From Synergistaceae bacterium (GTDB lineage Bacteria > Synergistota > Synergistia > Synergistales > Synergistaceae), in NCBI GenBank assembly GCA_030523725.1, contig JAUNHV010000008.1, forward strand, positions 1 through 64,000: 64,000 nt of DNA, in the 5' to 3' direction. A model generated the notes under the pieces. The model was given only the letters and a program-made list of their open reading frames with translations. It did not search any database and was not told where the DNA came from. The stretch's first letter is position 1. Every line of letters begins with the position of its first letter. This document shows positions 12,155 to 60,771 of the stretch, piece after piece. The translations under genes were made by a program, and so were the position numbers.

Positions 12155-12291
12155 AAAAGTGAAAAAAGGAAATCATGGCGTAAGCCAAGGTTTTTATAGA
12201 TTGTCGCAATGTGGGTTTTAGGCGTGGGCGCCAAGTTTGCGGTGCCACAAAACAAAAGAACGAAAAGTTCAGAAAGGAGAGAAATTTCAAG

Positions 12292-14766: not shown

Positions 14767-17700
14767 AGGATAGCGTAGTAAGTATCATAAATGGTGATTT
14801 TATTGGCAATTACACCTATCCAGACAATGATGATTTTGATCATCCAGAAGGTGGTGCTATTTATAACAAAGGTGGTACAATAAGCGCCATAAAAGGTGAT
14901 CTTATTGCCAATTACGCAATGTATGGAGGTGCAATTTTTAATTGTAATTCTTCTTCTAATGAAGGTACCGTTAATGTGACGGGCAGTTTTGTTGCCAATT
15001 ATGTAACATTTTGGGGTGGTGCAATCTATAACGAGCATGGTACCGTTAACGTGACTGGCAATTTTGTCGGCAATCACGCAATGTATGGTGGTGCAATCAC
15101 TAACGGTGGTACACTACCCTATGACAAGTCTGCTACCGTTAACGTGACGGGTGATTTTGTTGGTAATTATGTAAAGCCTTACAACTTTTCCTCATCAACC
15201 TATGGTGGGGCGATTTCAAATGGAATTAATGGAACGATGACAATCCGAGGTAATTTTAGAAATAATTTTGTTTCAGGCGGCCCTGGCATTGATGCTGCTG
15301 GTGGAGCGATTGACAACAGGGGCACAATAGCAATCCTTGCAGATGACAAGGATATTCTCTTTAGTGGTAATACCGTTTTGGATTCGGACAAAATAGATGT
15401 AGGTGGTGCAATCTACAATTCCCAACAAGCCAGCGTACTAAAATTATATGCCTCAGATGGTAACTCAATCAGCTTTGAGGGTAGAGACGGCTCCACTAAT
15501 GCTGATAAGATTGTAGATTCTGTTCATAACATTGGCAAACTTTATATAAATGGTAACGGAAGTGATGAAACAGGCTATACCGGCACTGTGAACTTTGTTG
15601 CGATTACAGATAATGCTACACCATCAGGACAGATGTATATCTATGGTGGAACAGTTGGTATATCAAGAGACGTTACGCAGAGTCTGCTCTCGATAAACAA
15701 TGCTACAATAAATATGCAGGACGCAGCAGGTGCAAAACCTGAGGATGTTAGATATTCAACCATAACAGTAACCACATTAGGGGGATCTGGTAATCTAATG
15801 ATTGATGCAACTGTGAAAAATGATGCAGCCAAAAATGCTGATAAAATTGTTTATACATCAGTAGACCATGCTGCCACATTAACCCTCACGAACATTAATT
15901 TGAGAGAGGGCTTTGATTCATACACGACTGAAACAAAGGATGACTACCTGACGGTTTTAGATGGAAGTGGTGCAACGCTAGTCGTCGGTGATGCAACTTC
16001 AAAAAAAATTACAACTCAGTTAGGAGATTACCTTTATACCTTTGAAAATGGAACAACTCCTGGAAAGCTGAAGGTTACAGGGAAATTTAACCCACTAGCT
16101 ACTTTGGTAGACTACATTACAGATACAGAAGTTGGACACCCGATAGATACATACAGCTTTGCAAAAAGTGAAATATTAGCAAAAGCCATAACGACGGGTT
16201 CTGCAGGTGGTGCAACCCAAAAGACAAATTATACCCTTGGTATGAATGGGCTTAGCTTGACGGGAACAGGGACAAAACATGATGGTATTACTGTTGCAGA
16301 AAAGCACACGTTAGATATCAGTAGCACGAGTGCAGAAATGAAAGGGACAATTTCCGGTTTTGCCACAGCCTTGACAGTTGATACTGGTGGAACGCTAGTG
16401 ATTAAGAATGTGAATTTCAGCGACAACACGACGGATATTTCAAACGCTGGAACATTGAATATGTCCGGCACAAACTCCATGAATAGTGGCGTGGCAAATG
16501 ATGGTGCGATGGAAGTGTCAAGCGGAAGCACAACCTTTGCTTCCGGAGTTAGCGTAAGCGGCGAAGGTAGCCTGGTAAACAAAGGAAGCCTAACGATAGA
16601 CGCAGACAAACTTACCTTGACCGGTGATGTAACAAACGAGGGGACATTAACCTTCACAGGCGGTACAACAGAAGCAAGAGCAGAGCTAGGAGTTACAATA
16701 AAGGATTCCACGACAGGTACAGTTGCCTTCGGTGATGGAAATGCTAACGCTTACATCAGTAACGCCAATGCTCTTAATCAAAGTGCAATCAATGTAGCGG
16801 CAAAGGCGGATGTTACGAACACCGGAAAATTAACAGCTAAGACACTAATAAATGCTGGCACCTTGTCAGCAGCAATAGACGATTTGTCTGTTGATACAAC
16901 ATTTACAAACAATGGCACTCTTGAAACCTCTGGTGAGTTGAATAAGTTGTCAACTCTGACAAACTCCGGCACAGTAAAAATTGCATCAGGCAAGACCTTG
17001 AAAGTTACTGCCGACAAGAATTTGGGCGGAACGCTCGATATGAATGGTGCAACGCTTGATATGCAAGAAACGGAAGGTGAGGCTTCCTATTCAGCCCTGA
17101 CAGTAGTTACACTAAAGGGTAATGGCGACTTAAAAATTAATGCAAATGTAAATGAAAGCGTGAAAAAGGCAGATAACATTTCCTTTGAAGGCATAGCTGG
17201 TACTACACCAGTAGTAAACCTTGCAAGCATTAATTTGGCAGAAGGCTTTAGCACTCACGCAACAAAGAGCACGCCAAGGATTGAAAAAAATTGGTTGACA
17301 GTTTTAGGCGGAACTGGTGTAACTCTTGCGACCTTGAAAGTAGGAGGAACAACAGGGTCAATCACAACACAACTTGGAAATTATAGTTACAAATTTACAA
17401 CAGCAGGTAGCGAGGCAGGAAAGTTAACAGTTACAGAAACCTATAACCCAATTACCTTAACTGAATACATAAGTGGTGCTGAAAAAGCAAAAGATTTAAC
17501 GTCATACAGCTTTGAAAGTGATGAAACCCTTGCAGCTGCTGTTACCACGGGTGCGACGAAAACAAATTACACCATTGGTATGAATGGAAAAGATTTAAAG
17601 GCAGGAACGGGTAAAAATAACGGTATCACAGTTTCAAACGGTAGAACATTAACTATTGACGGTAAAAACAGTGCCGCAAATAACGGTACGATTTCTGGAT

Positions 17701-19556
17701 TTGGCACAGCCTTAACAGTTGCTAATGGCGGTACGCTCGCGATTAATAACGTAAACTTTAGTGACAACAATATAGCTATTTCAAACGCTGGAACATTGAA
17801 TATGTCCGGCACAAACTCTTTTGACTCAAAAATTACAGGAAATGGAACAGCAACGAACGCAGGAACAGTAACAATTACTGCTAATAATTTGGACATTGCA
17901 TTACAAAATGATGGTACCTTGAATCTAGGTGCTGGAACATTGGGTTTGGGTAAGAACATCTCAGGTACTGGCGCAACCGTCATCAGTGGAGTTGTAAAGT
18001 CCAACGCAGAAATAGCTAACACAATAACAATAGACGGTGCTGGACAATCTCTTGAAATTTCAGCAGATAATGTTGCTGGTGAAGTAACAAACAGCAACCA
18101 AGGAACACTTATCCTTGATGGTGGAAAGCTAGCAAAACAGGTAAGTGCAGCTACAGAGGGAGAAATGGGCACAGTGAACCTGAAGAGTGCAACAGAAATT
18201 GCAGCTCAAATTAACGACCAGATTATTAAAGCGACAAACGGTTATTCAACGGTTGCAGATGCAAGCTACATTACAAGCGATATCTTGACCTTTAACGGTG
18301 GAGGTTTTGACTTTAGAAATTACGGTGTTGAACATTATGTAGTCAAAAACATCAATCTGACGGGTAACGGTAATTTAATGCTTGATGTAGACCTTGCTAA
18401 TAAGTTGATGGACACCCTTAACGTAGCTGAAGGTGGAGCCGTTACCGGTTCAGGAAAGCTTCATGTTACTGCCCTTACACTTTTATCAGACGCAAAACAG
18501 AACAAAACAAATATTGCCTTCACAACGACAGATGGCTTGAAGGGACATGTCGTGTCAGACGTTACACATGTAGCATCAGACATGTGGAAATACCTCGTTG
18601 CTTATGATAAGGAGACTGGTGAATTTGCCTTCACAAAGAACGGCAGAAATGAGCCAGACAAGCCAGAGGTTAGCGAAACCACAAAATCAGTTGCTGACAC
18701 GGCAAATGCAATAAACCTTGCATGGTTGGAGACTACCGGTACGCTACAAAAACGCCTTGGTGACCTCCGTGGCGGAGAGGCAAGCAACACAGGCTGGGCA
18801 CGTTTCCAGAGAAGCAACGATGATCACAATGGAGCAAGAAAACTTAACGTTTCCGGTAACCTCTATCAGCTTGGTTATGATATTGCCTTAAAGAACGATA
18901 CGACCGCTCGCGGTTACTTCGGTCTCTCCCTTGAGAGATTTGACGGAAGCCAGTCATATAAGATTGGTGGTGGCGATGTAAAATCCACATCACTTAGCGC
19001 ATACTACACAAAGATTTATGACAGTGGTCACTACTTTGACTTCATCTTCCGTTATGGTAGATATGAAAGCGACACAACAAGCTACGACGCAGGACTTTCC
19101 ACAAAACTCGACTACGGTATGAACGGAGTAACCTTATCCGGTGAATATGGATATAGAGCAAATATTGGTAAGAATGGATTCTACTTCGAGCCACAGGCAG
19201 AAGTTATCTATGGTTATTTAGCTGGAGCAAAGAAGACAAGTAGCAGAGGCATCTTGGCAGACATAGATAGCACAAACCACTTTGTGACAAGACTTGGTGT
19301 TGCCTTGGGTAAGAAGGTTAAAAACTTTAATTACTACTTAAGAGGCAGCTACTATCATGACTTTGCTGGTTCAACAAACATCTTGTATGGAGATGCATCA
19401 TACAAACAAGACAGTGCGAGAAACTGGTGGGAACTTTCCCTCGGTGGAGGCTGGAACATGACAGACGCAAGTTACTTCTATGCAGAACTCACGAAACACT
19501 TCAAGGATGTAAGTAACTCGATAAACTTTAATCTTGGTTTCCGCTTCACACTGTAA
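14730..19556 (+). CDS. Giant autotransporter, 3' part: passenger repeats and outer-membrane barrel
   Basis: The frame is open from the G tract to 19556 (about 1608 codons). It begins with glycine-rich units such as GGAIHLEDS, GNFVGNHAMYGGAI and VNVTGDFVGNY, the pattern of a right-handed beta-helix passenger. Longer units of about 450 residues occur twice, around 16080-17040 and 17460-18000, each with a TNYT-GMNG block and ISNAGTLNMSGTNS. The last roughly 270 residues form the autotransporter barrel: it begins near GWARFQRSNDD, has many alternating strands and ends FRFTL with a terminal hydrophobic residue preceded by Phe. The domain would display the passenger on the outer membrane, probably as an adhesin. 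Without the 5' part it has no signal peptide. The stop is followed at once by a long hairpin repeat. Confidence 0.85.
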   Translation, partial: AKYKPQGGAIHLEDSVVSIINGDFIGNYTYPDNDDFDHPEGGAIYNKGGTISAIKGDLIANYAMYGGAIFNCNSSSNEGTVNVTGSFVANYVTFWGGAIYNEHGTVNVTGNFVGNHAMYGGAITNGGTLPYDKSATVNVTGDFVGNYVKPYNFSSSTYGGAISNGINGTMTIRGNFRNNFVSGGPGIDAAGGAIDNRGTIAILADDKDILFSGNTVLDSDKIDVGGAIYNSQQASVLKLYASDGNSISFEGRDGSTNADKIVDSVHNIGKLYINGNGSDETGYTGTVNFVAITDNATPSGQMYIYGGTVGISRDVTQSLLSINNATINMQDAAGAKPEDVRYSTITVTTLGGSGNLMIDATVKNDAAKNADKIVYTSVDHAATLTLTNINLREGFDSYTTETKDDYLTVLDGSGATLVVGDATSKKITTQLGDYLYTFENGTTPGKLKVTGKFNPLATLVDYITDTEVGHPIDTYSFAKSEILAKAITTGSAGGATQKTNYTLGMNGLSLTGTGTKHDGITVAEKHTLDISSTSAEMKGTISGFATALTVDTGGTLVIKNVNFSDNTTDISNAGTLNMSGTNSMNSGVANDGAMEVSSGSTTFASGVSVSGEGSLVNKGSLTIDADKLTLTGDVTNEGTLTFTGGTTEARAELGVTIKDSTTGTVAFGDGNANAYISNANALNQSAINVAAKADVTNTGKLTAKTLINAGTLSAAIDDLSVDTTFTNNGTLETSGELNKLSTLTNSGTVKIASGKTLKVTADKNLGGTLDMNGATLDMQETEGEASYSALTVVTLKGNGDLKINANVNESVKKADNISFEGIAGTTPVVNLASINLAEGFSTHATKSTPRIEKNWLTVLGGTGVTLATLKVGGTTGSITTQLGNYSYKFTTAGSEAGKLTVTETYNPITLTEYISGAEKAKDLTSYSFESDETLAAAVTTGATKTNYTIGMNGKDLKAGTGKNNGITVSNGRTLTIDGKNSAANNGTISGFGTALTVANGGTLAINNVNFSDNNIAISNAGTLNMSGTNSFDSKITGNGTATNAGTVTITANNLDIALQNDGTLNLGAGTLGLGKNISGTGATVISGVVKSNAEIANTITIDGAGQSLEISADNVAGEVTNSNQGTLILDGGKLAKQVSAATEGEMGTVNLKSATEIAAQINDQIIKATNGYSTVADASYITSDILTFNGGGFDFRNYGVEHYVVKNINLTGNGNLMLDVDLANKLMDTLNVAEGGAVTGSGKLHVTALTLLSDAKQNKTNIAFTTTDGLKGHVVSDVTHVASDMWKYLVAYDKETGEFAFTKNGRNEPDKPEVSETTKSVADTANAINLAWLETTGTLQKRLGDLRGGEASNTGWARFQRSNDDHNGARKLNVSGNLYQLGYDIALKNDTTARGYFGLSLERFDGSQSYKIGGGDVKSTSLSAYYTKIYDSGHYFDFIFRYGRYESDTTSYDAGLSTKLDYGMNGVTLSGEYGYRANIGKNGFYFEPQAEVIYGYLAGAKKTSSRGILADIDSTNHFVTRLGVALGKKVKNFNYYLRGSYYHDFAGSTNILYGDASYKQDSARNWWELSLGGGWNMTDASYFYAELTKHFKDVSNSINFNLGFRFTL

Positions 19557-19715: not shown

Positions 19716-19794
19716 GCGGCTAACATAAAGACAAGGAGTCGTTGGTAAAACCAACGACTCCTTGCTGTGTTTTTAGCTCTAGCCAAGCTAGAGC
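19716..19794. repeat. Hairpin pair with the CTAACATAAAG linker
   Basis: GCGGCTAACATAAAG (19716-19730) precedes a hairpin with 15-bp perfect arms (19732-19746 with 19750-19764, loop AAA) and a second one, GCTCTAGC-CAA-GCTAGAGC (19776-19794). It lies between the converging autotransporter and esterase genes and belongs to the same family as the elements at 9887 and 11518. It may terminate both transcripts. Confidence 0.65.
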
Positions 19795-22409: not shown

Positions 22410-22802
22410 TTACTTTTCAAAATTTATTACGTCGATAGCAGCTATAACTGCATTACGAGTACAATCCTCACAGGAACACATGACTACTCCGCTGTTTTTT
22501 CCCTTTAAATCTTTACAGATAGTTGCTCCACAAGAATCTAAAAACTTATGATACAAAGTCCTAGATTTGTCTAAGGTATTTTTCCTCTCTGTAGCTAGTC
22601 CTACTACAAGGTTTGCTCCAATAAGAGCTCCGCATGTTGCGTCCATTGTCCCCATGCCGGTAGCAAAACCTGCCGTTGCCAGTAATAGTGTGCTGCATTC
22701 TTTTCCCATTGCTTCGGATAATGCCTTTACCACCGCTTGGGCACAGTTATAGCCATTGTGTTTGTAATAAACTGCTTTGTCTGCAATTTCTTTTTTTGTC
22801 AT
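22410..22802 (-). CDS. C_GCAxxG_C_C family protein
   Basis: The 130-residue protein contains the family pattern of spaced cysteines: GYNCAQAV near residue 18, a central ATCGALIGAN, a conserved FLDSCGATICKDL and two late cysteines in CSCEDC. Such small proteins are common in anaerobes, are thought to be redox-active or metal-binding, and have no settled function. It follows the STAS gene by 9 bases on the same strand, so it is likely part of the NRPS-phosphatase transcription unit. Confidence 0.85.
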   Translation of the reverse strand: MTKKEIADKAVYYKHNGYNCAQAVVKALSEAMGKECSTLLLATAGFATGMGTMDATCGALIGANLVVGLATERKNTLDKSRTLYHKFLDSCGATICKDLKGKNSGVVMCSCEDCTRNAVIAAIDVINFEK

Positions 22803-22811
22803 ATATTACTC

Positions 22812-23120
22812 TTAAGCTTCCTTTGCGATGATTGGCATCTTCTCATTGAGATGTGTCATTTCAAAAATGCTCATTACATCTGGATTAACATTAATAACAG
22901 AGAAGGTTGCTTCTAATGTTTTTGCTGTGCGGTTTGCTGCAACTACCTGACGAATACCAGCAGATGACATGTATTCAACATCGCTAAAATCTAACACAAG
23001 TTTTGTCGCTGCTGTGATATTGTCGATTATCGTACCAAGCTCCTGTGAACCCTTATAATCGAGCCATCCTTCAATCTTTAATGTAAGTTCTCCGTCCTTG
23101 TTCTCTGTTGTGATTGTCAT
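22812..23120 (-). CDS. STAS-domain anti-anti-sigma-factor-like protein
   Basis: The 102-residue protein is a single STAS domain. LVLDFSDVEYMSSAGIRQV carries the conserved DxxxxxSxG segment in which one Ser is the usual phosphorylation site. In partner switching the unphosphorylated STAS protein binds an RsbW-like kinase and frees its target; a SpoIIE-type phosphatase reactivates it. Here the ATG overlaps the stop of the phosphatase gene (ATGA) and has AGGAGG upstream, so the two are translationally coupled. No sigma factor gene is nearby, so the target may not be a sigma factor. Confidence 0.92.
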   Translation of the reverse strand: MTITTENKDGELTLKIEGWLDYKGSQELGTIIDNITAATKLVLDFSDVEYMSSAGIRQVVAANRTAKTLEATFSVINVNPDVMSIFEMTHLNEKMPIIAKEA

Positions 23121-25150
23121 TTGTTTTCCTCCTTATATAGGTATTTTGTAATGGTTAGAATATTTTTATCATCTACTCTTTCATAGGTTACCTCGTCTGC
23201 AATAGAGAAGGCAATCAACTGCCCAAGTCCACCAACCTGTTCGTCCAGATCATAATCGGTGCCGCTAATTACATTATCTGTTGGATTATAGGCAATGCCA
23301 CAGTCCTCAAATCGCATAATAATACGATCAAAATGCTCAAATACAAAGCGTATAATTTGTCCCTTCTTTTCCTGCTCCTTGAATGCATAGGAGCAAATAT
23401 TAACAAAAATTTCTTCTGCTGCCACGCAAAGCGTAAGTTGCAGTTGTCGTGGTAAATCAGAAGTTAAGAGAATCTCTCTAATATAGGTAAAATCTGCCGT
23501 GTCTGGCGAAAGCTCCAGCTCAAAGTGATATTTTACTGTAAAGGCAAGCATTGTAATATCATCACTTTGCTCTGAGCCACCTGTGAAGTTACGGACAGCT
23601 CGATAGACATATTCCACCAAGTCCTTTTCGTGCGAAGCGTGGAACTTACTAAGCACATTTTCTAAACGTTCCGTACCAAAGAAATTATTTGTTGCATCAA
23701 TTGCTTCGTTAACACCGTCTGTATAAAGGAATAGGCTCTCGCCAGCGGAGAGATGAATTTCTTCTTGTGTAAATTTTTCACCCTTATAAAGCCCGAGCAA
23801 TATATTTTGTGCACCTTTGAGAGGTTCTAGTCTATCTCGTAAAACATAGGGAGGATTGTGACCAGCGTTTGAGTATGTAAGGACACCAGTTTTGATATCA
23901 AAAATACCTACGAAAGCTGTAATAAAGAGCAGTGATGGATTTCTGCTACAAAAAGTTTCATTTACATTTTCTAGAATCTGTGCAGGAGTTAGACCAACGG
24001 TGGCATATTGGTGAATTAAGACCAATGCAACCGCCATGTAAAACGACGGGGCGTAACCTTTCCCAGAAACGTCACCGATTGTTAAGAGCACACGGCCATC
24101 TCCTAGATCCAGATATTCGTAAAGATCTCCACCAACTTCCTTCGCAGGCACCATTTTGGCGACGATCTCATATTCTTGAGTGTTAAATCTTGGTGGCGCT
24201 AAGAAACCTTTCTGAATCATTGTTGCAATTTTTGCTTCTGTTTTGCGCCGTTCTTCTGCACTTGTTAGCTGGTTATTTTCTTTTATATATTTGTCAATAT
24301 TATCTGACATGGTATTGAACGCAGATGCAATCATTGCAAATTCATCGTTACTACTTGTGTCAAGCGAAACCTTGGAGCGTTTACCATCTGTGATAAATTC
24401 CATCATTGAGTCAACGAGCTTTTGAATTGGCTTGAAAACACTGTGACGAATGAGGAAATAAATAATTATTGTCATAAATATAAATATACATAGAATGGCT
24501 GATACAAATGGCATGTAGGCCTTGGCAATTTCTTCCTTGATTTCACGTGTAAAAATGCCGGTTACTACCACAACCCTACTGCCATAACCATCGTTTGTAA
24601 GGCTATAAAGAGATTCAAGGGCTGGTTCAAAGCGATTACTCCTCTGTGAAGAATATGGAATATGGTTCACCCATATTTTCAGTTCTGCCTCCGTGGGGAT
24701 ATGGTGAATTTCAGCTCCTATCAACCCATTATAATCGTCAGGAAGAGTCTTGTCCCCCAAGGAGAGTATTTTACCAAAAGCGTGTTGCGCCTTTTCAAAA
24801 ATGTGTCTATCGCTTTCTTTATATGAAAAGCTTAAGAGCTTCATTGTATTTTCCTTATCAGAAATGGAATAGATGTACATATAATCTACATGGTACCATT
24901 TACAGATATAGTCACAGCAAAAATCGATATATTTTGTCATTTTTTCGCTGATAATTGGTGTACGCGTATCTCGAGCTTTCTGCCAAATCAGGTCGCCAAT
25001 AACACCAGCTAAACTTGCATTATATTTTGAGGTTTCAGTTTGAACAATATCTGAAATTATAAAATATGAACCAATAATCGATATTGCCATGATTATGAAA
25101 ATCAATGTTGCGAGTTTCGCTGTTAGTTTTCTTGCAAAAGATCGTTTCAT
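23117..25150 (-). CDS. Membrane sensor SpoIIE/PP2C-type phosphatase with RsbW-like domain
   Basis: About 677 residues. The layout is a transmembrane helix (about 10-33), an extracytoplasmic sensor region of about 175 residues, a second helix (about 211-233), a HAMP linker, a SpoIIE/PP2C serine phosphatase domain (about 310-530, with KEVGGDLYEYL near 339 and LYTDGVNEA) and a C-terminal HATPase domain of the RsbW type (about 545-677, with AAEEIFVNICSYAF near 578 and GGLGQLIA near 638). One polypeptide thus seems to carry both phosphatase and kinase-like modules for the STAS protein encoded next. I prefer the ATG at 25150, one base after the NRPS stop; a TTG at 25171 would overlap the NRPS end and has no visible ribosome-binding site. 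The tight spacing links its expression to the NRPS. Confidence 0.93.
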   Translation of the reverse strand: MKRSFARKLTAKLATLIFIIMAISIIGSYFIISDIVQTETSKYNASLAGVIGDLIWQKARDTRTPIISEKMTKYIDFCCDYICKWYHVDYMYIYSISDKENTMKLLSFSYKESDRHIFEKAQHAFGKILSLGDKTLPDDYNGLIGAEIHHIPTEAELKIWVNHIPYSSQRSNRFEPALESLYSLTNDGYGSRVVVVTGIFTREIKEEIAKAYMPFVSAILCIFIFMTIIIYFLIRHSVFKPIQKLVDSMMEFITDGKRSKVSLDTSSNDEFAMIASAFNTMSDNIDKYIKENNQLTSAEERRKTEAKIATMIQKGFLAPPRFNTQEYEIVAKMVPAKEVGGDLYEYLDLGDGRVLLTIGDVSGKGYAPSFYMAVALVLIHQYATVGLTPAQILENVNETFCSRNPSLLFITAFVGIFDIKTGVLTYSNAGHNPPYVLRDRLEPLKGAQNILLGLYKGEKFTQEEIHLSAGESLFLYTDGVNEAIDATNNFFGTERLENVLSKFHASHEKDLVEYVYRAVRNFTGGSEQSDDITMLAFTVKYHFELELSPDTADFTYIREILLTSDLPRQLQLTLCVAAEEIFVNICSYAFKEQEKKGQIIRFVFEHFDRIIMRFEDCGIAYNPTDNVISGTDYDLDEQVGGLGQLIAFSIADEVTYERVDDKNILTITKYLYKEENK

Positions 25151-25151
25151 T

Positions 25152-28100
25152 TTAATTTTCGTCCAATTCAAAATAATCTATGGTAAGCAAACTTCTAATT
25201 GCACGTTCCAAATAATCATCCGAGGGTAATGGCCATGAGAAACCAAGTCGGTAAAGAATATTTGTTGTGAATTTGTTGTCAACTTCCACGCCATGTATAT
25301 CTGGTCGGTCATTTGTGATGAGTCCTTGAAGACGTGCATTAATACGTAAATCGCCAAGCATTCTATGATAATCTGCATAATACTCTCTATCTGCCACAGG
25401 AGTAATTTTTACACCACAGCGATTTGCCACGGCAACAAGCTGCCACTCGTCAAATATGAATCTGTTGTCTGCATTAAATGCAGTAAACATATCATTTGTT
25501 CCTGATAGAAGTACCACAGCTCTTGCCGTCATGTCAATTGGAGAGAAACTCATTTGGTCTGTTGAATGACTAATTGGTGCTTTGCCTATCGTTGCAAATC
25601 CTCGCAAGGCATTTAAAAAAGCGTTTGAATTGAAGTTAATCTGAAATTCTCCGTCACTCTGTCGTCCCATCAAATTGCCGACACGAATAATTTTACCACG
25701 CATTCCATTTTTTATTGCTTCGAGCATCTTTAGCTCTGCATGATATTTTGAGATACCATACTTATTGCCCATGTCGTCAATAACGAAGAGCTTGTTTTCA
25801 TAGGCTTTAATGTTCTGTCTCCAAGTTTCTTCTGTATGTGCGCCATAGACAGAAATTGTAGATACTTGAATTAACTTTGCATTATGCTTAGTTGCAACCT
25901 TTATTAAATTCTCAACGCCATGAACATTAATACGTTCTATGATGTCGTCCGCTGCATAGTGTTTTACGCAGGCAGCACAGTTAATGATGGTATCAAAATG
26001 CACATCTTTTAGCACATTTACGAGGTTATCGCCTGTGATATCTGCTTCAAGAACCTGAATTCGTTTTTCAAGAGCTTCGGTAAATATCTCGTCAAAGTAG
26101 TACATCAACATACTTTTTAGACGTTTTAGTGGTGTAGCAAAGCTGCCACGTCGTATAAGACAGACGATATGTCCCTCATTTGCATCAATGAGTTCTCTAA
26201 GTACATGAATTCCTAAAAATCCGACAGCCCCAGTTAAAAGAACATCTCCCAAAGGTTTTCTTTCCACCTGGTCTGCATATTCAAGTGTATTATACTGCAA
26301 TTGCTCCGGATAGTCAGAGCGAATTCCGGAAGTGTCTTCATTGGTGCCTTCTGTGGAAATACTGTAAGCCTTATTATGGCTTGCAATATAATTTGCTAAA
26401 AGTTCAGGTGTTGGGTTGTCAAAGATATTTTGGTATTCAACCCTGATACCTCGTGCCATGAGCTGCATTGTGACCTTTGAAGCAGAAAGCGATGTTCCTC
26501 CCATTTCAAAGAAATTATCATCAGCATAGAATTCGTCTAGTGATAAAACAGATGCAAAAAGTTCGCAAAGTTCCTGCTCAATAGATTTTCGCGGAGCTTT
26601 TCTTCCGCTTCTCTTCTTTTCTCGCTTTACTTCTGGAAGTGCTTTTTTGTCGATTTTTCCACTTGGGGTAAGAGGCATGGCGTCTAGCTGCATCATCACG
26701 TCTGGCACCATATAATAGGTAAGACGGCTCCTCATGTGAGCGATAAGAGCTTCGGAATTTATTTCGTGATCTGCTGAATAGAATCCTACGAGGTAGTCCT
26801 CTGAACCGTTATTTCGGACAACAACCTTGCTTCGAGTAATGCCTTCAAATGCATTGATACAATTTTCAATTTCATCTAGTTCAACACGGAAGCCACGAAG
26901 TTTTACCTGATTATCACGACGACCAAAAAATTCTATTTCGCCGTCCTTATTCAAACGAACAAGATCTCCGGAATGATACGCAGGAAGACCATCAAATGTA
27001 GAAAATACTTCTTTTGTTTTATCGGGAAGGTTTATATAGCCTCTCCCAACACACTCACCAACAATGAGTAGCTCTCCACATGCGTATGGTGGCAGGATAT
27101 TCCCAAATTTATCCACGACATAAATTTTCGCATTTACCATAGGACCACCAATTGTAATATTTTCGGCACTATCTAGTTTTTTTGCACTGCATGTTACGGT
27201 ACATTCCGTTGGTCCATAAGCATTGATAATGGTAATTTCTGGCGAAAGTTCTTTTAAGGAATCATAAAGTGTTGTGGGGAAAGTTTCTGCTCCAACAAGA
27301 ATAGATTTAACATTTGCCATCACAGGTCTAAATTCAGAAATACTTAAAAGATTAGTAAGAAGTGATGGTGTTGTCATCATTATATCAACCTTGTGCTTGC
27401 TAATGACATCTGCAAGCAAAAGTGGATTATGAATTTCGCGTTCTGTGGCAAGACAAACCGTTTTGCCGTTCAAAAGCATTAACATATGGTCAAGAATGGA
27501 TGCGTCAAATGAAACGGAGCTCAGAGCAAGTGACACATGTCCACTCATGTTACCGTGATAGTATTTATAGACTGAGTCTGCAGGCTGTGCAAGATTTGCA
27601 AGGCTGTGATGCTCAATCATCACACCTTTTGGATTGCCGGTAGAGCCAGAGGTATAGATGCAATACGCAAGACTATTTGTCGGAATATCAAGGTTTGGAT
27701 TTTCCTCGTTGCCATCTGCTACGAGGTCATCCACTATCAAGGCACGATATGGTTTGTCTTTACTGAAAAGTACTTGCCTTGATTCCAATATATCCTTCGT
27801 AGTGATCACAAGAGGACTGCCAGCGTCACGCAGACAATAATCAATTCTATCATCTGGATAGTCGGGTAAAAGTCCAAGGAACGCACCCCCAGATTTGAAG
27901 ATTGCAATTTCTGAGATGGATAGTTTTTCGCTTCTTGGAAGCATCATGCCAACAACTGTGTCTTTTTTCACGCCTTCTTCAATAAGGCGATGTGCCATTC
28001 GATTGGCTAAAGTGTTAAGTTCTTTATATGTAAGTTTACGATCCTCGCATATTACGGCAGGGCAATCCGGGGTGGTTTTTGCAAAATGTTCAAATAAACG

Positions 28101-31100
28101 GTTTACTGAGACATTTTCAAAAGGATGTTTTGTTTCATTGATTTTTGAAAGTAGTGCCTCTGATTTTTCTGAAATAAGGGAAATAAAGTTTGTCTTCGTC
28201 TTTTCTATGAAGCCTTTAAGAGTCATCTCAAAAACATCTAAGAAGCACTCAATGAAATCAGGACTGTAATGTTCCAGACGGAAATCAGAAACCAAACGAT
28301 ATTGACCGTTTGCCAAATACACATTTAGTACTATCGGCGCTTTTGCACCAGCAGGTGCTGGGTTAATAACTTCTACTGGCTCGCCGGCGAGAGAATCGAA
28401 AGAAAACTCATCTCCCTGATATGCAAAGATGACGTCTGATTTTATACCGTAGGCAGCAGAAATTTCAGCGAATGAAAAAATATCATTTGACATATTGTTT
28501 ATTAACTGTTCCTGCGTTTCAAGAATCATATCCGTGATAATTCTACTTCCTCCAGTGTGAACAAGAACAGGTAATGTTTTTACAAGCATGGAAATAGATC
28601 TTGAAAGTCTTGAGTCACTTCTGCCATTATAAATGGTTGTGTAAATAGTGTCCTCAAAATTTCCGAAGCGACTCAGTGTATAGCCAAACGCCGTGTTAAA
28701 GAAAGCATTTTGTGTTACCCTGTGCTTGTCGCAGTAAGCTTTAACGTCTTTATAACTTATTTTGGAAAGACGCTCAAGAGTTGCAGAGCCTTTAGCGTCG
28801 GTTTGAGTTGCCTTTGGTGGCAAACAGGCAGGATCGCAGCCCTTGAACACACTATCATAATAAGATTTTGCAGAGGCATAGTGTTCTGTGTTACGTGCCG
28901 CCTCTTCGTCCAGCGCTACTTCAAATCCTGTATATTTTTCCTTTTCAACGAGGAGTCCTGCATAGACTTTGTTTATATCATACAAGAGGATATTCTCTGA
29001 CATTCCGTCAGAAATAATATGATGAAAATCTAGGAAAAGATAATTTGCATTACTTGTTTCGTAGATAGCTATGCGATAAAGTGGTTCATTAAGGAGCGTG
29101 AAAGGTTTTACTAATTTCTCATGCCCCGGAAGCTCCTCGCATTTTATGAAGTCAATCTGTGGTAAGGCTTCGTCGTTTCTACGGGCTCTGATATTGCCTT
29201 CTGCATTAGCAAACAATGTTGTTTTAACATAGGGATGAGCATTAATTACTGTTTTTGCTGCTTCGATAAGTTTTTTAGTGTCAACGTTTTTGCCAAGCTT
29301 TAAAAGAAGTGGAATATTGTAAAGCACTGAATTTGGATTAGCACTACACTCAATATAAATTCCCATTTGAGTTTGCGTAATAGGATAATCTGGGAGCAGC
29401 TCGTATTCAACCTCTTTTGTAGAAGATTCAATAAAGGTGGCTAATTTTTCGATAGAGCTGTTTGCTTTAATATCTGCAACCTTAAACGGAATGTTGAATG
29501 TTTTTTCTAGTTCAACATTCAAACGAATAATAGATATAGAAGTAAGACCTGTTTCATAAAGATCTGCATCTATACTAATTTCTTTCTGCCCTAAAATTTC
29601 TGTAATAATGTCATGGAGCTTCTTTTGTGTGTCATTTTTAGGTGCAATGACAAGGGCAACTTTTCGTTCCGGTTTTGGAAGAGCACGTTTATTTACCTTC
29701 TGATTCTGATTTAATGGAATTGCCTCAATCTGCATTGTAACAGCTGGCACCATGTAAGACGGTTTTTCAGAGAGGATAAATTCATTCAATCTCCTAATGT
29801 TAATTTCTTCGTCTGACACAACGTAGGCAGCGATAAATTTTCCGCCAGCAGGATCGTCAAAGGCAGCGACAGTTGCGTCTTTGATACCGCTAAAGCGGCG
29901 AATAATTTCTTCTATCTCTGTAAGTTCTACTCGGAAACCACGTATCTTTACCTGTCCATCATGTCTCCCAATAAAATCTATTGTGCCGTCTGGGAGATAA
30001 CGCACGATATCCCCAGTCCGGTATATTGTTTTGTAGCTCTTTTCATTTGTAAAAGGATTTTTGATAAAGGCATCTGCTGTTTTTTCTGGCAGATTCAAAT
30101 AGCCCTTTCCTATTTGACGACCAGAGACGAGCAATTCTCCAGGAGCTCCAACCGGCAATCTATTCATGTTTGCATCGACAATATAGCCCTTGATGTTCGC
30201 ATTGACCTTTCCAATGGAAGTTTTATAGGTGTTGCTCTCAACCTTGGTGTTTGTGACATAGGCAGTGCACTCGGTTGGACCGTAATGGTTTCTGAATTCA
30301 AACGAAAGTTTGTCTGTATCAATAGGAATAAGTGCTTCACCGCCAACCATGAGGTACTTTAAGTATGGCGTCTTTGTGAAGGTTGCAAATTGCCTGCCCA
30401 CCTGGGTTGACATGAATCCGTGGGTTATTTTATTTTCTGTGTAATATCTGTTAACTTCGGAGAGATCAAGGCGGATTTCTTCAGGGATAACATGTATAAC
30501 TCCTCCGTACGGTGGAAAAGATATAATGTCTTGCATGCAGGCGTCAAAACCGAAAGATGCATAGCAAGCGTTGGTTGCCTCTCCGTCAATTTTGAACATA
30601 CGCTTGTTCAACTGAGATAATGCAGTTACGTTGCCGTGACTGAGCATGACCCCCTTCGGATTTCCCGTTGTGCCGCTGGTGTAAAGAAGGATGAAGAGAT
30701 CGTCCAGTTCATTTTTAACTGGTGTTGGTGTTGCCTCTGGCAAATTTTCCAAGTCTTCGATAAATAGGAATTTTTCATTATAGCCTGAGATTTTATCCTT
30801 TAATTCACGAGTCGTAATGAGAAGTTTTGCTTTGGCATCTTTTACCATAAAAGACAGACGTTCTTCTGGGTAGCTAATGTCTAATGGTTCATAGGCACAC
30901 CCGGCTTTTAACACACCGAGAGGTGCAAGAATAATCCACTCATTTCTTGGTACAAGAATAGCCACAATATCATTTCGGCTAAATCCAAGTGACTGAATTT
31001 TCGCTGCTATCTTGTCTGTAATTTTTCCAGCTTGGCCATAGGAATAGTGATTTTCTTTATAAACGACAAATTCATGCTCTGGTGTCTTTGATACCCATTC

Positions 31101-34085
31101 GTTAAAGCCTTCCGTAATTGTTTTGTCTTCCAAGGGCATCTCGTTATTGTTAAAGGTATCCAGTAATGTGGCTTGATGTTCGGAAACAAGGCTTACTTCT
31201 TTTAAGTATTCTTTCTTTACAAATTCGCTGACAGCACAGACAAAGGCATCTGCAAATGACTCTATAATGCCTCGTGAGTAAAGGTCACTTCTGTAACGGA
31301 AGCTCAAACGATAACCATCTTCTCTATAGAACGCCATAAGCGTGAGTTTATTTATTGCGTCAGGATTTGGAATACCAATAACGGGAAACTGCTCGCCGCA
31401 AAGAGTTAGAGAGTTAAAAGCATCATTTTGATAAACGAACATAAAATCGTTCGAAATACCATATTCCGTTGCAAGCTCTGCGAAGGGATACACATCATTT
31501 TTGGTGTTTTTGCGGAACATTTCCTGCATTTTTCTAATATAGCGTGTTATGTCACTCTCGCCCTTCAAGTCAACAGGGAGTGCAATGGTTTTGACAAGCA
31601 TTCCCGCGGTGTTAAAGGTCATGGAAGTATGTCTGCCGCTTTCAGCGACACAGACAAGTGACTGATCTGTGCCATTGAATTTTGCAAGCACAAAGGCAAA
31701 GGCAGAGAGGAAAAGGGAGTGCTCTGTAAAATTATTGCTCTTTAAGAATTTTAGCAGCTTATCCCGTTCCAGTGAGAGTTTACACTCAACTGTATCAAGT
31801 TTTGCTTCTCCTTTGTCTTTGAAATCAGATGGAAAATCATTTGACAATTCTAGACCATCAAACATTTGTTTATAATATGTTTTTGCATCATCATACTTTT
31901 GAGATGTCCTTACCACTTCCTCATAGGTTGAGAGGTCAAAAGCAGAAGTTCTTTCTTCAAAGAGGTCGTATCCGCCATAAGCTCTGCTTATTTCTTTTAA
32001 GAGGATTGAAAGTGTGGTTCCGTCAAAGACGATGTGGTGAGCATCTAGTGCTAATACCTTTTCTTCATTGCTTTCAAAAATGCAAGCACGAATCAGTTCA
32101 CCATTTGCAAGGTCAAATGGTTTTATAAATTGTTGGAGCTCAGTTTGCATATCGTTTGTTTTACGACACTCCAGCTTAAACTTTCTGTTGTTTGGAATCA
32201 TGCAAGGCACGCCACCAACAACATCAATGTTACATTGATACGCCTTGTGGTTTGCGACGGTCTTTTCAACTGCTGCTGCGAGTTTTGCTACATTCACATT
32301 TTCCCCAAGTGTGATGCTGATTGGATTGTTGTACATGAGGCTCTTTGGATTTTCCTCAACAGCAAAATATACCCCGAGTTGTGAAGATGTGAGAGGATAA
32401 GCAGCTTTTTGCACCCTCTCAAATGGGATTTCATCTGAACCACCATTTTCGATTAGCTCGGCAATTTTGGCAGGAGTTTTTCCTTCAAAGAATTTTTCAA
32501 GATCAATGGGCAAATCTTCAAGTGCATTGATTGTTTCGATTGCCTTTATAGAGTCACCTCCCAAAAGAAAGAAATCGTCATCTCGACCAATTCTTCCACA
32601 TTGCAAGACTTCCTCTATTGCGTGGCAGATAGCTTCTTCTATCTTGTTTTGTGGTGCAACATACTCTCGTTTGTAAGAGGCAATGTCCGGTTCTGGGAGA
32701 TTTTTCCTGTCAAGTTTTCCATTTGGATTTAGTGGGAGTACTTCCATCTTGGTGTAGAAACTTGGTACCATGTAATGTGGAAGGTTGGTTTTGCAATGCT
32801 CTCTTAGTTTTTCTTCTGTAACACCTTCGTCAGCAACATAGTATATTGCAAGATAAGTGACACCATTCTTTGCAGTAAAATCTTTAACTGCAGCTTCTTT
32901 AATGCCTGGAAATCTTCTGACAGTGGTTTCCACCTCAAGTGGCTCCACGCGCTGCCCGTTGATTTTTATTATCCAGTCTTTTCTTTCGATAAACACAAGG
33001 TTTCCATCTGGCAGGCGTTGCACGATGTCACCTGTGCGGAACATTCGTTCATACCCATCAATTTCAGTGAATGGGTTTTTAACAAAGGCTTTCTTTGTTT
33101 CTTCTGGTCTATTGAGATAGCCCTTTGCAACGTAACCAGCAATGCAAAGTTCTCCGATTTCAACTTGGTTGTTGTTTTCGTCTAGGACGTATGCTTTTTC
33201 CGTGCCAAAAGGTTTTCCTATAGGTGTGTTTTCATAAAGCTTATCTATCTTAAAGCCTAGTGTGCCGCCGAATAGCTCTGTTGCTCCGTAGCCATTCATC
33301 ACAACTGGATGATCATTGAAATATATATTTGTAATTCTTTCTGAACCTACGGAGATAATCTTTAAGGATTTGTTATGCTTTAGCATAAAATTAACGATTC
33401 TTGGCGGAACAAATGATGCTTCTATATCGTTATCATCATAATATTTTGCAAGTTTGTATGGATCTTTTCTTATTTCATCTGGCACAATTACAATATGTTT
33501 TGCGAGGGGTAGTGCTGCGATGAAAAGTCCTGTACCAACGACAAAGGTAAAGGGGGCTACAAGCCCTACAATATTATTTCTTTCTGTTTTTTCTTCTTTA
33601 TCATGAATAGTGTTTCTTGCTGCAACTGCCGCCATGGAATAAAAATCGTGAACGACACCCTTTGGATTGCCGGTAGAACCTGAAGTGTAAATTACGATTC
33701 CTTCTGCGTCCATTTCGGAAATAATAGGCTCAACCCTAAGTGACATATCCATTGACTTCATAAAATTCTCGTCAATACAAAGATCGTATTGTGAATCTTG
33801 TTTTATATAATTAAGACGTTCTTCTGGGTAATCGTCAGAAAGCGGAATTGCAACAGCTCCCATTATCCAACATCCGATAAGGCATCCACCATATTCTTTG
33901 CTTCTTGGAATTTCCACTATCACGCGGCTTCCGTAACGCACACCATTCTTCTGAAGATTTGCCGCAACGCATTTTGCAAATTCACATAGTTCATTGTAAG
34001 TAAAGGTGCCATTGTCATCAGAAATGGCGGGTTCTGCTCCGTGGTCTTTCACTGTTTGAAGAAATGTTTCAATAATGTGTTTCAT
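25152..34085 (-). CDS. Three-module non-ribosomal peptide synthetase with terminal reductase
   Basis: 2977 residues. Domain order by motif: A1 (about 1-480), T1 (LLGGDSIKA, Ser about 512), C1 (HHIVFDG, about 683), A2 (TSGTTGNPKG, about 1134), T2 (GLTSISI, Ser about 1516), C2 (HHIISDG, about 1688), A3 (TSGSTGNPKG, about 2144), T3 (MGGTSLSA, Ser about 2531) and a thioester reductase (NAD(P)-binding VLLTGAVGFLG, about 2618, and YGISKYHAE). The reductase should release the product as an aldehyde or alcohol. A2 and A3 have the FDA core (FDACMQD, FDASILD) expected for amino acids. A1 reads APFTFVVGTG there, without the Asp that holds the alpha-amine, so it may load an acyl or other acid. No phosphopantetheinyl transferase, MbtH or thioesterase gene is in the window. 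A promoter with an embedded palindrome lies directly upstream. Confidence 0.95.
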   Translation of the reverse strand: MKHIIETFLQTVKDHGAEPAISDDNGTFTYNELCEFAKCVAANLQKNGVRYGSRVIVEIPRSKEYGGCLIGCWIMGAVAIPLSDDYPEERLNYIKQDSQYDLCIDENFMKSMDMSLRVEPIISEMDAEGIVIYTSGSTGNPKGVVHDFYSMAAVAARNTIHDKEEKTERNNIVGLVAPFTFVVGTGLFIAALPLAKHIVIVPDEIRKDPYKLAKYYDDNDIEASFVPPRIVNFMLKHNKSLKIISVGSERITNIYFNDHPVVMNGYGATELFGGTLGFKIDKLYENTPIGKPFGTEKAYVLDENNNQVEIGELCIAGYVAKGYLNRPEETKKAFVKNPFTEIDGYERMFRTGDIVQRLPDGNLVFIERKDWIIKINGQRVEPLEVETTVRRFPGIKEAAVKDFTAKNGVTYLAIYYVADEGVTEEKLREHCKTNLPHYMVPSFYTKMEVLPLNPNGKLDRKNLPEPDIASYKREYVAPQNKIEEAICHAIEEVLQCGRIGRDDDFFLLGGDSIKAIETINALEDLPIDLEKFFEGKTPAKIAELIENGGSDEIPFERVQKAAYPLTSSQLGVYFAVEENPKSLMYNNPISITLGENVNVAKLAAAVEKTVANHKAYQCNIDVVGGVPCMIPNNRKFKLECRKTNDMQTELQQFIKPFDLANGELIRACIFESNEEKVLALDAHHIVFDGTTLSILLKEISRAYGGYDLFEERTSAFDLSTYEEVVRTSQKYDDAKTYYKQMFDGLELSNDFPSDFKDKGEAKLDTVECKLSLERDKLLKFLKSNNFTEHSLFLSAFAFVLAKFNGTDQSLVCVAESGRHTSMTFNTAGMLVKTIALPVDLKGESDITRYIRKMQEMFRKNTKNDVYPFAELATEYGISNDFMFVYQNDAFNSLTLCGEQFPVIGIPNPDAINKLTLMAFYREDGYRLSFRYRSDLYSRGIIESFADAFVCAVSEFVKKEYLKEVSLVSEHQATLLDTFNNNEMPLEDKTITEGFNEWVSKTPEHEFVVYKENHYSYGQAGKITDKIAAKIQSLGFSRNDIVAILVPRNEWIILAPLGVLKAGCAYEPLDISYPEERLSFMVKDAKAKLLITTRELKDKISGYNEKFLFIEDLENLPEATPTPVKNELDDLFILLYTSGTTGNPKGVMLSHGNVTALSQLNKRMFKIDGEATNACYASFGFDACMQDIISFPPYGGVIHVIPEEIRLDLSEVNRYYTENKITHGFMSTQVGRQFATFTKTPYLKYLMVGGEALIPIDTDKLSFEFRNHYGPTECTAYVTNTKVESNTYKTSIGKVNANIKGYIVDANMNRLPVGAPGELLVSGRQIGKGYLNLPEKTADAFIKNPFTNEKSYKTIYRTGDIVRYLPDGTIDFIGRHDGQVKIRGFRVELTEIEEIIRRFSGIKDATVAAFDDPAGGKFIAAYVVSDEEINIRRLNEFILSEKPSYMVPAVTMQIEAIPLNQNQKVNKRALPKPERKVALVIAPKNDTQKKLHDIITEILGQKEISIDADLYETGLTSISIIRLNVELEKTFNIPFKVADIKANSSIEKLATFIESSTKEVEYELLPDYPITQTQMGIYIECSANPNSVLYNIPLLLKLGKNVDTKKLIEAAKTVINAHPYVKTTLFANAEGNIRARRNDEALPQIDFIKCEELPGHEKLVKPFTLLNEPLYRIAIYETSNANYLFLDFHHIISDGMSENILLYDINKVYAGLLVEKEKYTGFEVALDEEAARNTEHYASAKSYYDSVFKGCDPACLPPKATQTDAKGSATLERLSKISYKDVKAYCDKHRVTQNAFFNTAFGYTLSRFGNFEDTIYTTIYNGRSDSRLSRSISMLVKTLPVLVHTGGSRIITDMILETQEQLINNMSNDIFSFAEISAAYGIKSDVIFAYQGDEFSFDSLAGEPVEVINPAPAGAKAPIVLNVYLANGQYRLVSDFRLEHYSPDFIECFLDVFEMTLKGFIEKTKTNFISLISEKSEALLSKINETKHPFENVSVNRLFEHFAKTTPDCPAVICEDRKLTYKELNTLANRMAHRLIEEGVKKDTVVGMMLPRSEKLSISEIAIFKSGGAFLGLLPDYPDDRIDYCLRDAGSPLVITTKDILESRQVLFSKDKPYRALIVDDLVADGNEENPNLDIPTNSLAYCIYTSGSTGNPKGVMIEHHSLANLAQPADSVYKYYHGNMSGHVSLALSSVSFDASILDHMLMLLNGKTVCLATEREIHNPLLLADVISKHKVDIMMTTPSLLTNLLSISEFRPVMANVKSILVGAETFPTTLYDSLKELSPEITIINAYGPTECTVTCSAKKLDSAENITIGGPMVNAKIYVVDKFGNILPPYACGELLIVGECVGRGYINLPDKTKEVFSTFDGLPAYHSGDLVRLNKDGEIEFFGRRDNQVKLRGFRVELDEIENCINAFEGITRSKVVVRNNGSEDYLVGFYSADHEINSEALIAHMRSRLTYYMVPDVMMQLDAMPLTPSGKIDKKALPEVKREKKRSGRKAPRKSIEQELCELFASVLSLDEFYADDNFFEMGGTSLSASKVTMQLMARGIRVEYQNIFDNPTPELLANYIASHNKAYSISTEGTNEDTSGIRSDYPEQLQYNTLEYADQVERKPLGDVLLTGAVGFLGIHVLRELIDANEGHIVCLIRRGSFATPLKRLKSMLMYYFDEIFTEALEKRIQVLEADITGDNLVNVLKDVHFDTIINCAACVKHYAADDIIERINVHGVENLIKVATKHNAKLIQVSTISVYGAHTEETWRQNIKAYENKLFVIDDMGNKYGISKYHAELKMLEAIKNGMRGKIIRVGNLMGRQSDGEFQINFNSNAFLNALRGFATIGKAPISHSTDQMSFSPIDMTARAVVLLSGTNDMFTAFNADNRFIFDEWQLVAVANRCGVKITPVADREYYADYHRMLGDLRINARLQGLITNDRPDIHGVEVDNKFTTNILYRLGFSWPLPSDDYLERAIRSLLTIDYFELDEN

Positions 34086-34118
34086 GGCATAAACCTCTTC
34101 TTATTTTTTTGTAAAACC

Positions 34119-34147
34119 TAAATACTGAACCTCATGTGAGGTGTCAA
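34119..34147 (-). promoter_or_regulatory. NRPS promoter with a palindrome in the spacer
   Basis: Read on the minus strand, TTGACA (34147-34142) and TATTTA (34124-34119) are spaced by 17 bp. The spacer is largely filled by the palindrome ACCTCA-TG-TGAGGT (34129-34142). A regulator bound there would block RNA polymerase directly. The transcription start would fall about 30 bases before the NRPS ATG. The palindrome could also be a weak hairpin after the upstream GNAT gene, but no T run follows. Confidence 0.6.
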
Positions 34148-34695
34148 TCTTTTCTGTACGGGGCTGCTAAGAAATCCTTGTCTAGGATTTCGCATCTTGT
34201 GCTATCTATCAATCTGTTAAAGGCATCCAAGTCAAAGTTTTTATGGCTTGAAAATACTTCAAATTCACAATCCATATAGTGACGAAAGTATCCTGTCGGG
34301 AAAAAACCATTGCGAAGATATAAATCACGACGACGCTTGCGCTGTTCATTGTTGGGTGCATTTTCGTCGATTGCTTCAAAATCAATTATAAATTGGCGTT
34401 TACCACAATATTCCAGAATTAGCTTTAGTGCCTTTGTGCCTATCCCGTGCCCGCGGCGAGATGCCTCAATGGCAAAATAAGAACCATAGCCACACTCGTC
34501 AGTGAGGATAATCATAAAAAATCCGCATAATGTTCCTTCATCGTCAATTATGCCAAGAAGATGCTTATCAATTGTGGATTCAGCACGAAAGGCATCGTAA
34601 AGGTTAATTCGCTCATTGGCGGGAAAAGCTTCTTCAGAGATGCGACAAACAGCATCAAACTCAGGTGAGTCAGTTGTCAAACGAATAAGTTTCAT
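34144..34695 (-). CDS. GNAT-family N-acetyltransferase
   Basis: The 183-residue protein has the acetyl-CoA binding segment EASRRGHGIGTKALKLIL and the beta-4/beta-5 pattern LCGFFMIIL of GNAT enzymes. The C-terminal YLRNGFFPTGYF is also typical. It would transfer acetyl to an amine of an unknown substrate. It is the gene immediately upstream of the NRPS on the same strand, with its stop codon just before the NRPS promoter. Confidence 0.85.
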   Translation of the reverse strand: MKLIRLTTDSPEFDAVCRISEEAFPANERINLYDAFRAESTIDKHLLGIIDDEGTLCGFFMIILTDECGYGSYFAIEASRRGHGIGTKALKLILEYCGKRQFIIDFEAIDENAPNNEQRKRRRDLYLRNGFFPTGYFRHYMDCEFEVFSSHKNFDLDAFNRLIDSTRCEILDKDFLAAPYRKD

Positions 34696-34718: not shown

Positions 34719-35210
34719 TTATTCCTGGTTAGAATTCAGCTTTAAGCGCTGTTCTTTCCAAACATACCTTGCTCCCTCTAGTCCCATTTTCCCATTTGGA
34801 ATGAAACCAGCTTTAAAGAGCACTCGCTTTGAGGCGACATTGTTTTCTTCCGTTTCTGCCTCTATCAACCTTACCCCGTTTTGGACAGATGCCCATTTGA
34901 CGACAGCATATAAGGCTTCTGTCATATACCCTTGCCCTTCATATTCACTTTTCATTCCATAACCAATTTCAGTGATGCCGTCTTCTGGCAATCCTTTAAA
35001 GGATAAATTCCCAATAACCTTGTTACTGCCATCATTTAGCTCAATATTCCAGATTGCATACCACTCCCATTGGTCAAGGTGTAATTGACCTCCGTCCAAC
35101 ATTTCTTGATAGGCTTGCTTCAAGTCTGGTGAAGTTTCTTTTTGTATTAAGCATTTCATTTGTTCTCTAGAAGCAGGATAAATATTGAGTCGTTTGGTTT
35201 TTATCATCAT
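34719..35210 (-). CDS. GNAT-family N-acetyltransferase (RimJ/RimL-like)
   Basis: The 163-residue protein begins IKTKRLNIYPASREQ and contains VIGNLSFKG, then SEYEGQGYMTEALYAVVKW and the NVASKRVLFKAGF block, the usual signature of RimJ/RimL-type acetyltransferases. Substrates of such proteins range from ribosomal protein N-termini to small molecules; nothing here identifies one. It precedes the other GNAT gene by 23 bases. Confidence 0.88.
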   Translation of the reverse strand: MMIKTKRLNIYPASREQMKCLIQKETSPDLKQAYQEMLDGGQLHLDQWEWYAIWNIELNDGSNKVIGNLSFKGLPEDGITEIGYGMKSEYEGQGYMTEALYAVVKWASVQNGVRLIEAETEENNVASKRVLFKAGFIPNGKMGLEGARYVWKEQRLKLNSNQE

Positions 35211-53693: not shown

Positions 53694-53707
53694 TAGGAGT
53701 GAAGAGG

Positions 53708-56650: not shown

Positions 56651-56754
56651 AGGTGTATCAACTATATTGCCTCTATACAAGTGCTTCAAAAAGCAGGATT
56701 TATTCTAGATAGTATATAATATGGTATGCAGAAAAAATTTGTGGGAGATACACT

Positions 56755-58521: not shown

Positions 58522-58677
58522 TATCAAAACAAATGATACATAAAAGATACTCGCATTTGTTCACGAAGGAGAAGGAAAATATAGTTTCCTTCTTATAGGT
58601 GATAAAATTCCGGCAGGAGCAAAGCTTTACTGATTCCGATTTAGCGAGTTTTTATATAAAGGAAATTTTATATTATT

Positions 58678-59223: not shown

Positions 59224-59416
59224 ACAGGGGCTATCAGAAAACGAGATTGAATATTTAAAGCCAATCGTATCAATAAATATGTGTAAGGCTTTTGCTACAG
59301 GTTCGAAGAAAACAATTCAGTGATTGCATGGCGAGACCGCTGAAAATTTGCAACGATCGAATTATTGAAATGTTCCATGGGATGGTTCAAATGAAAGAAA
59401 GGTAGTGTCAAATATT

Positions 59417-60493: not shown

Positions 60494-60556
60494 ACGGTGG
60501 CAAATGGCGCTATGAAATTATAGAAACACAGATGTTGCAAAATTCTACTTGAATGT

Positions 60557-60593
60557 TAAAAAGCGATGACCCGTAGTGGGTCATCGCTTTTTA
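60557..60593 (+). terminator. Intrinsic terminator
   Basis: TAAAAAGCGATGACCC (60557-60572) pairs over 16 bp with 60578-60593, and the stem ends in a T run. It closes the second NRPS locus before the sensor/MFS genes. Confidence 0.9.
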
Positions 60594-60683
60594 GGGTAAA
60601 AAATTCAACATATAGCATAGTCAAGTAAAATACAGTATAATTACTAAAAAGTTCAAAATTCTGCAAAAATAAGTGAAAACAAT

Positions 60684-60729
60684 TTGATATTATTCCCGCA
60701 AATGGGATATGTGAAGACGGTAGTATTTA
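60684..60729 (+). other. rlmD-tail scar 3
   Basis: TTTGATATTATTCCCGCAAA and the following ATGGGATATGTGAAGACGG resemble the rlmD 3' end (FDMFPQTGHVETVV) with one base shifted and several changes. It is the most diverged copy and lies just before the first sensor/MFS gene. Confidence 0.5.
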
Positions 60730-60771
60730 CAATTACAATACGGGCAGCAAAGAAATAATTAGGAGATTTAT

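Follow-up and report, generated by a model that had tools for sequence, protein, structure and literature searches.

The window, the whole 64,000-nucleotide stretch analysed here, carries on its minus strand an NRPS gene (25152..34085; 2977 aa) followed by genes for a membrane phosphatase-kinase (23117..25150; 677 aa) and an anti-sigma-antagonist-like STAS protein (22812..23120; 102 aa). Pfam matches and an A-domain alignment give the NRPS the architecture A-T-C-A-T-C-A-T-R, and the phosphatase-kinase combines two transmembrane helices, an extracytoplasmic region, a HAMP domain, a SpoIIE (PP2C) domain and an RsbW-like HATPase_c_2 domain. The junction between the first two genes reads AAT-TAA-A-ATG, where a single base separates the NRPS stop from the ATG at 25150; an in-frame TTG upstream (25171) is a possible alternative start. 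The STAS gene is preceded by AGGAGG and shares an ATGA with the phosphatase stop. The first-pass annotation of this DNA had described a three-module NRPS with SpoIIE, RsbW-like and STAS domains, the one-base spacing and the ATGA overlap, all of which were confirmed by the domain matches and by the sequence of the junctions. The three genes lie within a run of 12 colinear genes (38973-19820, minus strand) separated by gaps of mostly less than 60 bp, and a strong, bidirectional terminator-like hairpin (19731..19765) follows the last of them. A GNAT acetyltransferase gene (34144..34695, minus strand) lies 58 bp upstream of the NRPS gene and colinear with it, with no strong terminator seen between the two; it is possibly co-transcribed with the NRPS, as is the gene for a second GNAT acetyltransferase (34719..35210, minus strand), recognized by a domain match. 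On the other side, the gene for a C_GCAxxG_C_C redox protein (22410..22802, minus strand) begins 9 bp after the STAS gene and is probably co-transcribed with it. The 1.55-Mb genome contains three SpoIIE genes, and the probability that one would fall within 60 bp of an NRPS end by chance is about 1e-4. The window also encodes a large autotransporter (14919-19556, plus strand; beta-domain 7.8e-26), and a DUF6273 ORF (12211-14766, plus strand) that ends 152 bp before it may be the 5' part of the same gene, now disrupted.

Three AMP-binding, two Condensation and three PP-binding domains were found in the NRPS, together with a terminal NAD_binding_4 domain (3.9e-30, residues 2617-2857); the enzyme thus has the A, T and C modules and C-terminal thioester reductase of a reductase-terminated NRPS, and the Pfam domain search detected neither a starter C domain nor a thioesterase. 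The A4 motif of the first A domain (A1), FTFVVGT, has Val where A domains specific for amino acids have the Asp that binds the alpha-amino group. This Asp is also replaced by Val, Ile or Ala in most three-module relatives in the A-domain alignment, and two-module relatives begin with a C domain. Because A1 lacks the Asp and the two-module relatives have a starter C domain, the predicted product is likely a capped dipeptide aldehyde or alcohol, in which A1 would load the acyl group or another non-alpha-amino acid. The A-T-C-A-T part resembles the aureusimine synthetase AusA (1404 bits to NF047350), in which a terminal reductase likewise gives an aldehyde, but AusA has two modules (A-T-C-A-T-R) rather than three, and A1 of the window NRPS lacks the alpha-amino Asp. 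With a score well below the NF047350 cut-off of 2500 and a third module, we rejected assignment of the window NRPS as AusA.

The phosphatase-kinase is predicted to cross the membrane at residues of about 14-32 and 216-234, and its HAMP, SpoIIE and HATPase_c_2 domains score 8e-6, 1e-46 and 5e-9, respectively. Among 17 NRPS-linked proteins, the PP2C metal-binding residues (D342, D360, D478, D530 and D531) are invariant, as are E580 and N584 of the HATPase N-box and the glycines of the G2-box (GGLG); a DxG motif is also present. The window STAS protein scores 57.7 bits to TIGR00377, above the cut-off of 53.45, and its acceptor, Ser53, lies within an SSAG motif, aligns with the Ser of TM1442 and is kept in 67/67 aligned STAS domains. 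By these sequence features, the PP2C, RsbW/SpoIIAB-type GHKL and STAS parts conform to a SpoIIE/RsbU-type partner-switching module. The best fold match of the phosphatase model is the RsbU-RsbW part of Mycobacterium tuberculosis Rv1364c (3ke6), followed by the phosphatase domains of RssB, SiaA and SpoIIE. Rv1364c is a regulator of sigma F that carries its STAS domain in the same chain; it shares the fused RsbU-RsbW architecture but has no NRPS. Among the matches of the STAS protein was 7ch8, which we take to be MlaB, the STAS subunit of a lipid transporter. In the AlphaFold model of the phosphatase, the sensor region (56-200) falls below pLDDT 50, and we therefore claim no ligand class for it. 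No close ortholog of this protein was found in its own phylum, where the best match (37%) comes from a genome that lacks an NRPS.

A scan of genome contigs with the phosphatase alone as query gave no matches, and the next query, an alignment of five A2 domains, retrieved 80 NRPS loci from GTDB genomes. When loci with an A2 identity of at least 48% were taken as close, SpoIIE, STAS or HATPase genes were present at 29/36 close loci versus 2/44 others (Fisher p = 6e-13), an imperfect control, as the two groups do not share the same taxonomy and habitat; an initial grouping, made in part post hoc, gave 31/39 versus 0/41. By comparison, a 20-kb reach has about a 2.7% chance of containing a SpoIIE gene at a density of three per 2.2 Mb. 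Domains in these surveys were called by phmmer with those of the window and its relatives, so that remote members can be missed, and the flanks often end at contig ends. Close loci occur in Prevotella, other Bacteroidales, Lachnospiraceae, Clostridia, Bacilli, Acholeplasmatales, Erysipelotrichaceae, Atopobiaceae and one Thermoplasmata archaeon, with many of the genomes coming from the rumen. In L145, L149 and other Bacteroidales loci, a porin-like outer-membrane gene (Alginate_exp, 450-460 aa) adjoins the STAS or NRPS gene; its product is possibly the outer-membrane exit for the peptide. Distances between R domains and between SpoIIE domains co-vary (Mantel r = 0.83, p = 0.0005), also within the Bacteroidota (0.52), archaea (0.83) and Bacillota (0.65), and shared vertical descent accounts for part of this relationship. 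A single clade of all NRPS-linked SpoIIEs was rejected, as seven changes are needed, at least two of which are forced. The earlier claim that the partner-switch genes are tied to the NRPS is supported by recurrence across phyla and in archaea, by overlapping starts and by co-divergence.

The picture in the window's own phylum (188 genomes in the collection searched, nearly all from one order) is mixed. The module accompanies 4/10 NRPS-reductase genes there (p = 1e-4) and is absent from 6/10, and most SpoIIE/STAS loci, including two in the window's own genome, lack an NRPS. The first-pass annotation had proposed checking in related genomes whether the pair keeps company with the NRPS. As seen from the NRPS it often does, both in this phylum and at most close loci elsewhere, whereas as seen from the phylum's SpoIIE/STAS genes it mostly does not. 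The window's genome has further NRPS genes; those examined, on contigs 13 and 1, have no partner-switch genes nearby. Contig 13 carries a row of NRPS genes of ~980 aa, mostly with one A-T-C module each (L060, 2337-19498). A second, unrelated NRPS-type region lies in the window itself (50994-63720, plus strand; also L062), with genes for an SBP/permease/ABC fusion (899 aa), an A-T-C protein (983 aa) and an AMP-binding protein (588 aa), as well as three tandem genes of ~983 aa, the first of which has an MFS-like C-terminal half.

To follow the unit in archaea, we collected matches to the SpoIIE-HATPase of the archaeal locus L166 within its order and read 20 of the places. Matches were present in 35/147 genomes, and all 14 of the best (the query and its 13 nearest) adjoin an NRPS-reductase gene. 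The gene order is mostly NRPS, an optional PPTase, SpoIIE-HATPase and STAS with short overlaps, which matches the order in the window. One such unit sits inside a 1.66-Mb contig, making contamination unlikely. The more distant archaeal SpoIIE-HATPases that we read have no NRPS, and at least four of them lie beside a MATE-HATPase gene; among the archaeal MATE-HATPase places without an NRPS, one has a GH3 and two have LuxC/LuxE synthetases. Since this set and the Lachnospiraceae set described below were drawn by SpoIIE or MATE-HATPase similarity, they measure the presence of the NRPS given the module and not the reverse. The L166 genome (G188) has no sigma70 region 2, and its single SpoIIE is the NRPS-linked one. 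As the first-pass annotation had noted, there is no sigma factor at the window's locus, nor was one found anywhere in the window; the genome has a single sigma70 region-2 gene, of primary-sigma size, located on contig 13. The cognate alternative sigma factor of a sigma B or sigma F type switch was thus found neither at the locus nor in the genome. Together with the archaeal genome that has no sigma70, this indicates that a sigma factor is not the general output of the module.

Some relatives carry switch domains fused to pathway proteins. MATE-HATPase fusions occur in 15/397 genomes of the Lachnospiraceae-type family to which G190 belongs, where 16/19 of the genes adjoin an NRPS-reductase gene, and 38 such fusions were found in total among the loci read. 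In L118 (2917-4878), L308, L309 and L311, a STAS domain forms the N-terminus of an AMP-forming ligase; these STAS-AMP-ligase proteins align over their full length across four genomes (43-100%), and in one of these the gene sits directly behind a MATE-HATPase gene. Through these fusions, partner-switch domains are joined in cis to an adenylating enzyme and to an exporter. The MATE-fused HATPases keep G1 and, in 12/13 cases, the N-box but lack the GGLG box (L118, L136, L147, L152 and others), and some may therefore be scaffolds rather than kinases. At other loci a GH3, LuxE/LuxC, ATP-grasp or GH3_C-aminotransferase gene takes the place of the NRPS beside the MATE-HATPase, both in archaea (L297, L298 and L301) and in the Lachnospiraceae-type family (L275, L277, L282 and L283), and several of these loci also have SpoIIE and STAS. 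The switch may work with various kinds of synthetase. The window unit has neither a MATE nor a MATE-HATPase gene next to it, and MATE-HATPase genes are likewise missing beside the archaeal NRPS units. A STAS-Condensation fusion (L141), at first sight the strongest link of all, was set aside, since it was confined to a single draft genome and most of the A domain is missing from the following gene.

We propose, with a probability of about 0.6, that the window encodes a sigma-independent partner-switching module dedicated to the NRPS-reductase pathway, which would gate synthesis or release of the product. Because the pairing recurs in archaea, which have no sigma factors, the module probably controls the enzyme pathway directly. 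As we infer the sequence of events, the membrane protein would sense an external condition, its SpoIIE domain would dephosphorylate the STAS protein at Ser53, and the HATPase domain would rephosphorylate the same residue. The unphosphorylated STAS protein would then target the NRPS or adenylating enzyme or, among relatives, the MATE exporter, and so switch synthesis or release of the predicted peptide on or off. The SpoIIE-SpoIIAB-SpoIIAA and RsbU/W/V systems share all three domains with the module, as well as the Ser acceptor, the N-box and the G-boxes; however, their output is a sigma factor, which the window locus lacks and of which the archaeal relative has none. By analogy, the closest working model is SiaABCD, which also comprises a membrane PP2C phosphatase, a kinase and a small switch protein with an enzyme, not a sigma factor, as output, although its kinase is a separate protein. 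The switch protein, SiaC, is not known to be a canonical Pfam STAS protein. SiaA is the top NCBIfam match of the window phosphatase and one of its fold matches, but at 71 bits against a cut-off of 700 (NF038263) we rejected assignment as SiaA, and the comparison is limited to how the systems work. In Pseudomonas aeruginosa, SiaC directly binds and activates SiaD, which, unlike the target proposed here, is a diguanylate cyclase (PMC8457831, PMC7647112).

Other explanations were weighed against this reading. The STAS and HATPase proteins might gate a MATE-type exporter, with the NRPS as co-transcribed cargo and synthesis left uncontrolled. The many MATE-HATPase fusions, some beside GH3, LuxC/LuxE or ATP-grasp synthetases without an NRPS, fit this idea, but neither the window unit nor the archaeal NRPS units have an adjoining MATE-HATPase, and in four genomes STAS is fused to an adenylating ligase; we consider export control unlikely. 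Classical transcriptional control, in which the HATPase would bind the housekeeping sigma factor and the STAS protein would free it so that the operon reports on and adjusts general transcription, strikes us as distinctly improbable. The fold match to Rv1364c and the single sigma70 gene agree with it, and the Chlamydia RsbW-sigma66 case, in which a lone housekeeping sigma can be the partner-switch target (PMC8256260), leaves a primary sigma some room as the output in bacteria. The same gene order in archaea, including a genome without sigma70, argues against it, and neither the tight, recurrent linkage to one NRPS type nor the exporter and ligase fusions would be expected of a global sigma regulator.

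The first-pass annotation had suggested a self-regulating circuit with a sensor that detects the NRPS product or the target of that product. Translational coupling and co-inheritance are compatible with such feedback, but the sensors of the NRPS-linked phosphatases vary (Cache in 8/17, an unclassified two-TM type in the window, and types with five or six TM helices in archaea and elsewhere) on the same NRPS type, which favours diverse inputs over a fixed product sensor; that of the window is, in addition, modelled with low confidence. This part of the annotation was not supported, and we regard it as very unlikely. Strongly disfavoured, and the least probable of all, is the absence of any functional link. 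SpoIIE and STAS genes are common in gut anaerobes and many in the window's phylum are unlinked, so one could land in an operon by chance; yet the linkage rates, both in the phylum and across the 80 loci, are far above what gene density predicts, the genes overlap on the same strand and co-diverge within groups, and the other NRPS genes examined in the window's genome have no module. Dedicated, sigma-independent control of the NRPS pathway thus remains our preferred reading. We extend it, more tentatively and at somewhat less than even odds, to a trans-domain class of switches in which STAS proteins would bind adenylate-forming synthetases (NRPSs and AMP-ligases, with GH3 and LuxC/LuxE suggested by neighbourhood) as a post-translational on/off control of megasynthases, the RsbW-like kinase being built into a phosphatase or a MATE exporter.

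A comparable neighbourhood was described in 2010 in Methanobrevibacter ruminantium M1, where mru0066-0071 include an NRPS beside serine phosphatases, an anti-sigma-factor antagonist and MatE, and mru0513-0516 form a second NRPS neighbourhood with a PPTase, a phosphatase, an antagonist and a kinase; its authors guessed that these genes control NRPS expression (PMC2812497). The organism is also an archaeon and the NRPS and switch genes occur together, but the gene order differs, and the report (PMC2812497) deals with one genome, with no survey, fusions or sigma argument. Our search of open-access journal papers found the combination only in that genome paper and no account of the spread of the neighbourhood, the fusions or the sigma-free argument; a rumen BGC survey makes no mention of STAS, SpoIIE, anti-sigma or MATE. 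The parts are of known kinds, here in a variant combination.

Partner switching is taught as sigma-factor control. STAS proteins lacking known targets have nonetheless been listed, among them SypA, HmpV and RbaV (PMC8256260), and in 2009 SpoII-type regulators were noted in Methanomicrobiales, which have no sigma factors, with targets that could not be read from the genome (PMC2686161). An operon in which bacteria and archaea alike keep the module with one type of NRPS, together with the STAS-ligase and MATE-HATPase fusions, gives the switch a named candidate target. The wider, trans-domain class, if it exists, would account for at least some of the archaeal anti-sigma and anti-anti-sigma proteins whose targets are missing. 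If our reading is right, post-translational switching would be a new form of control of peptide natural products made by microbes of the rumen and gut, and would offer a handle for waking silent clusters.
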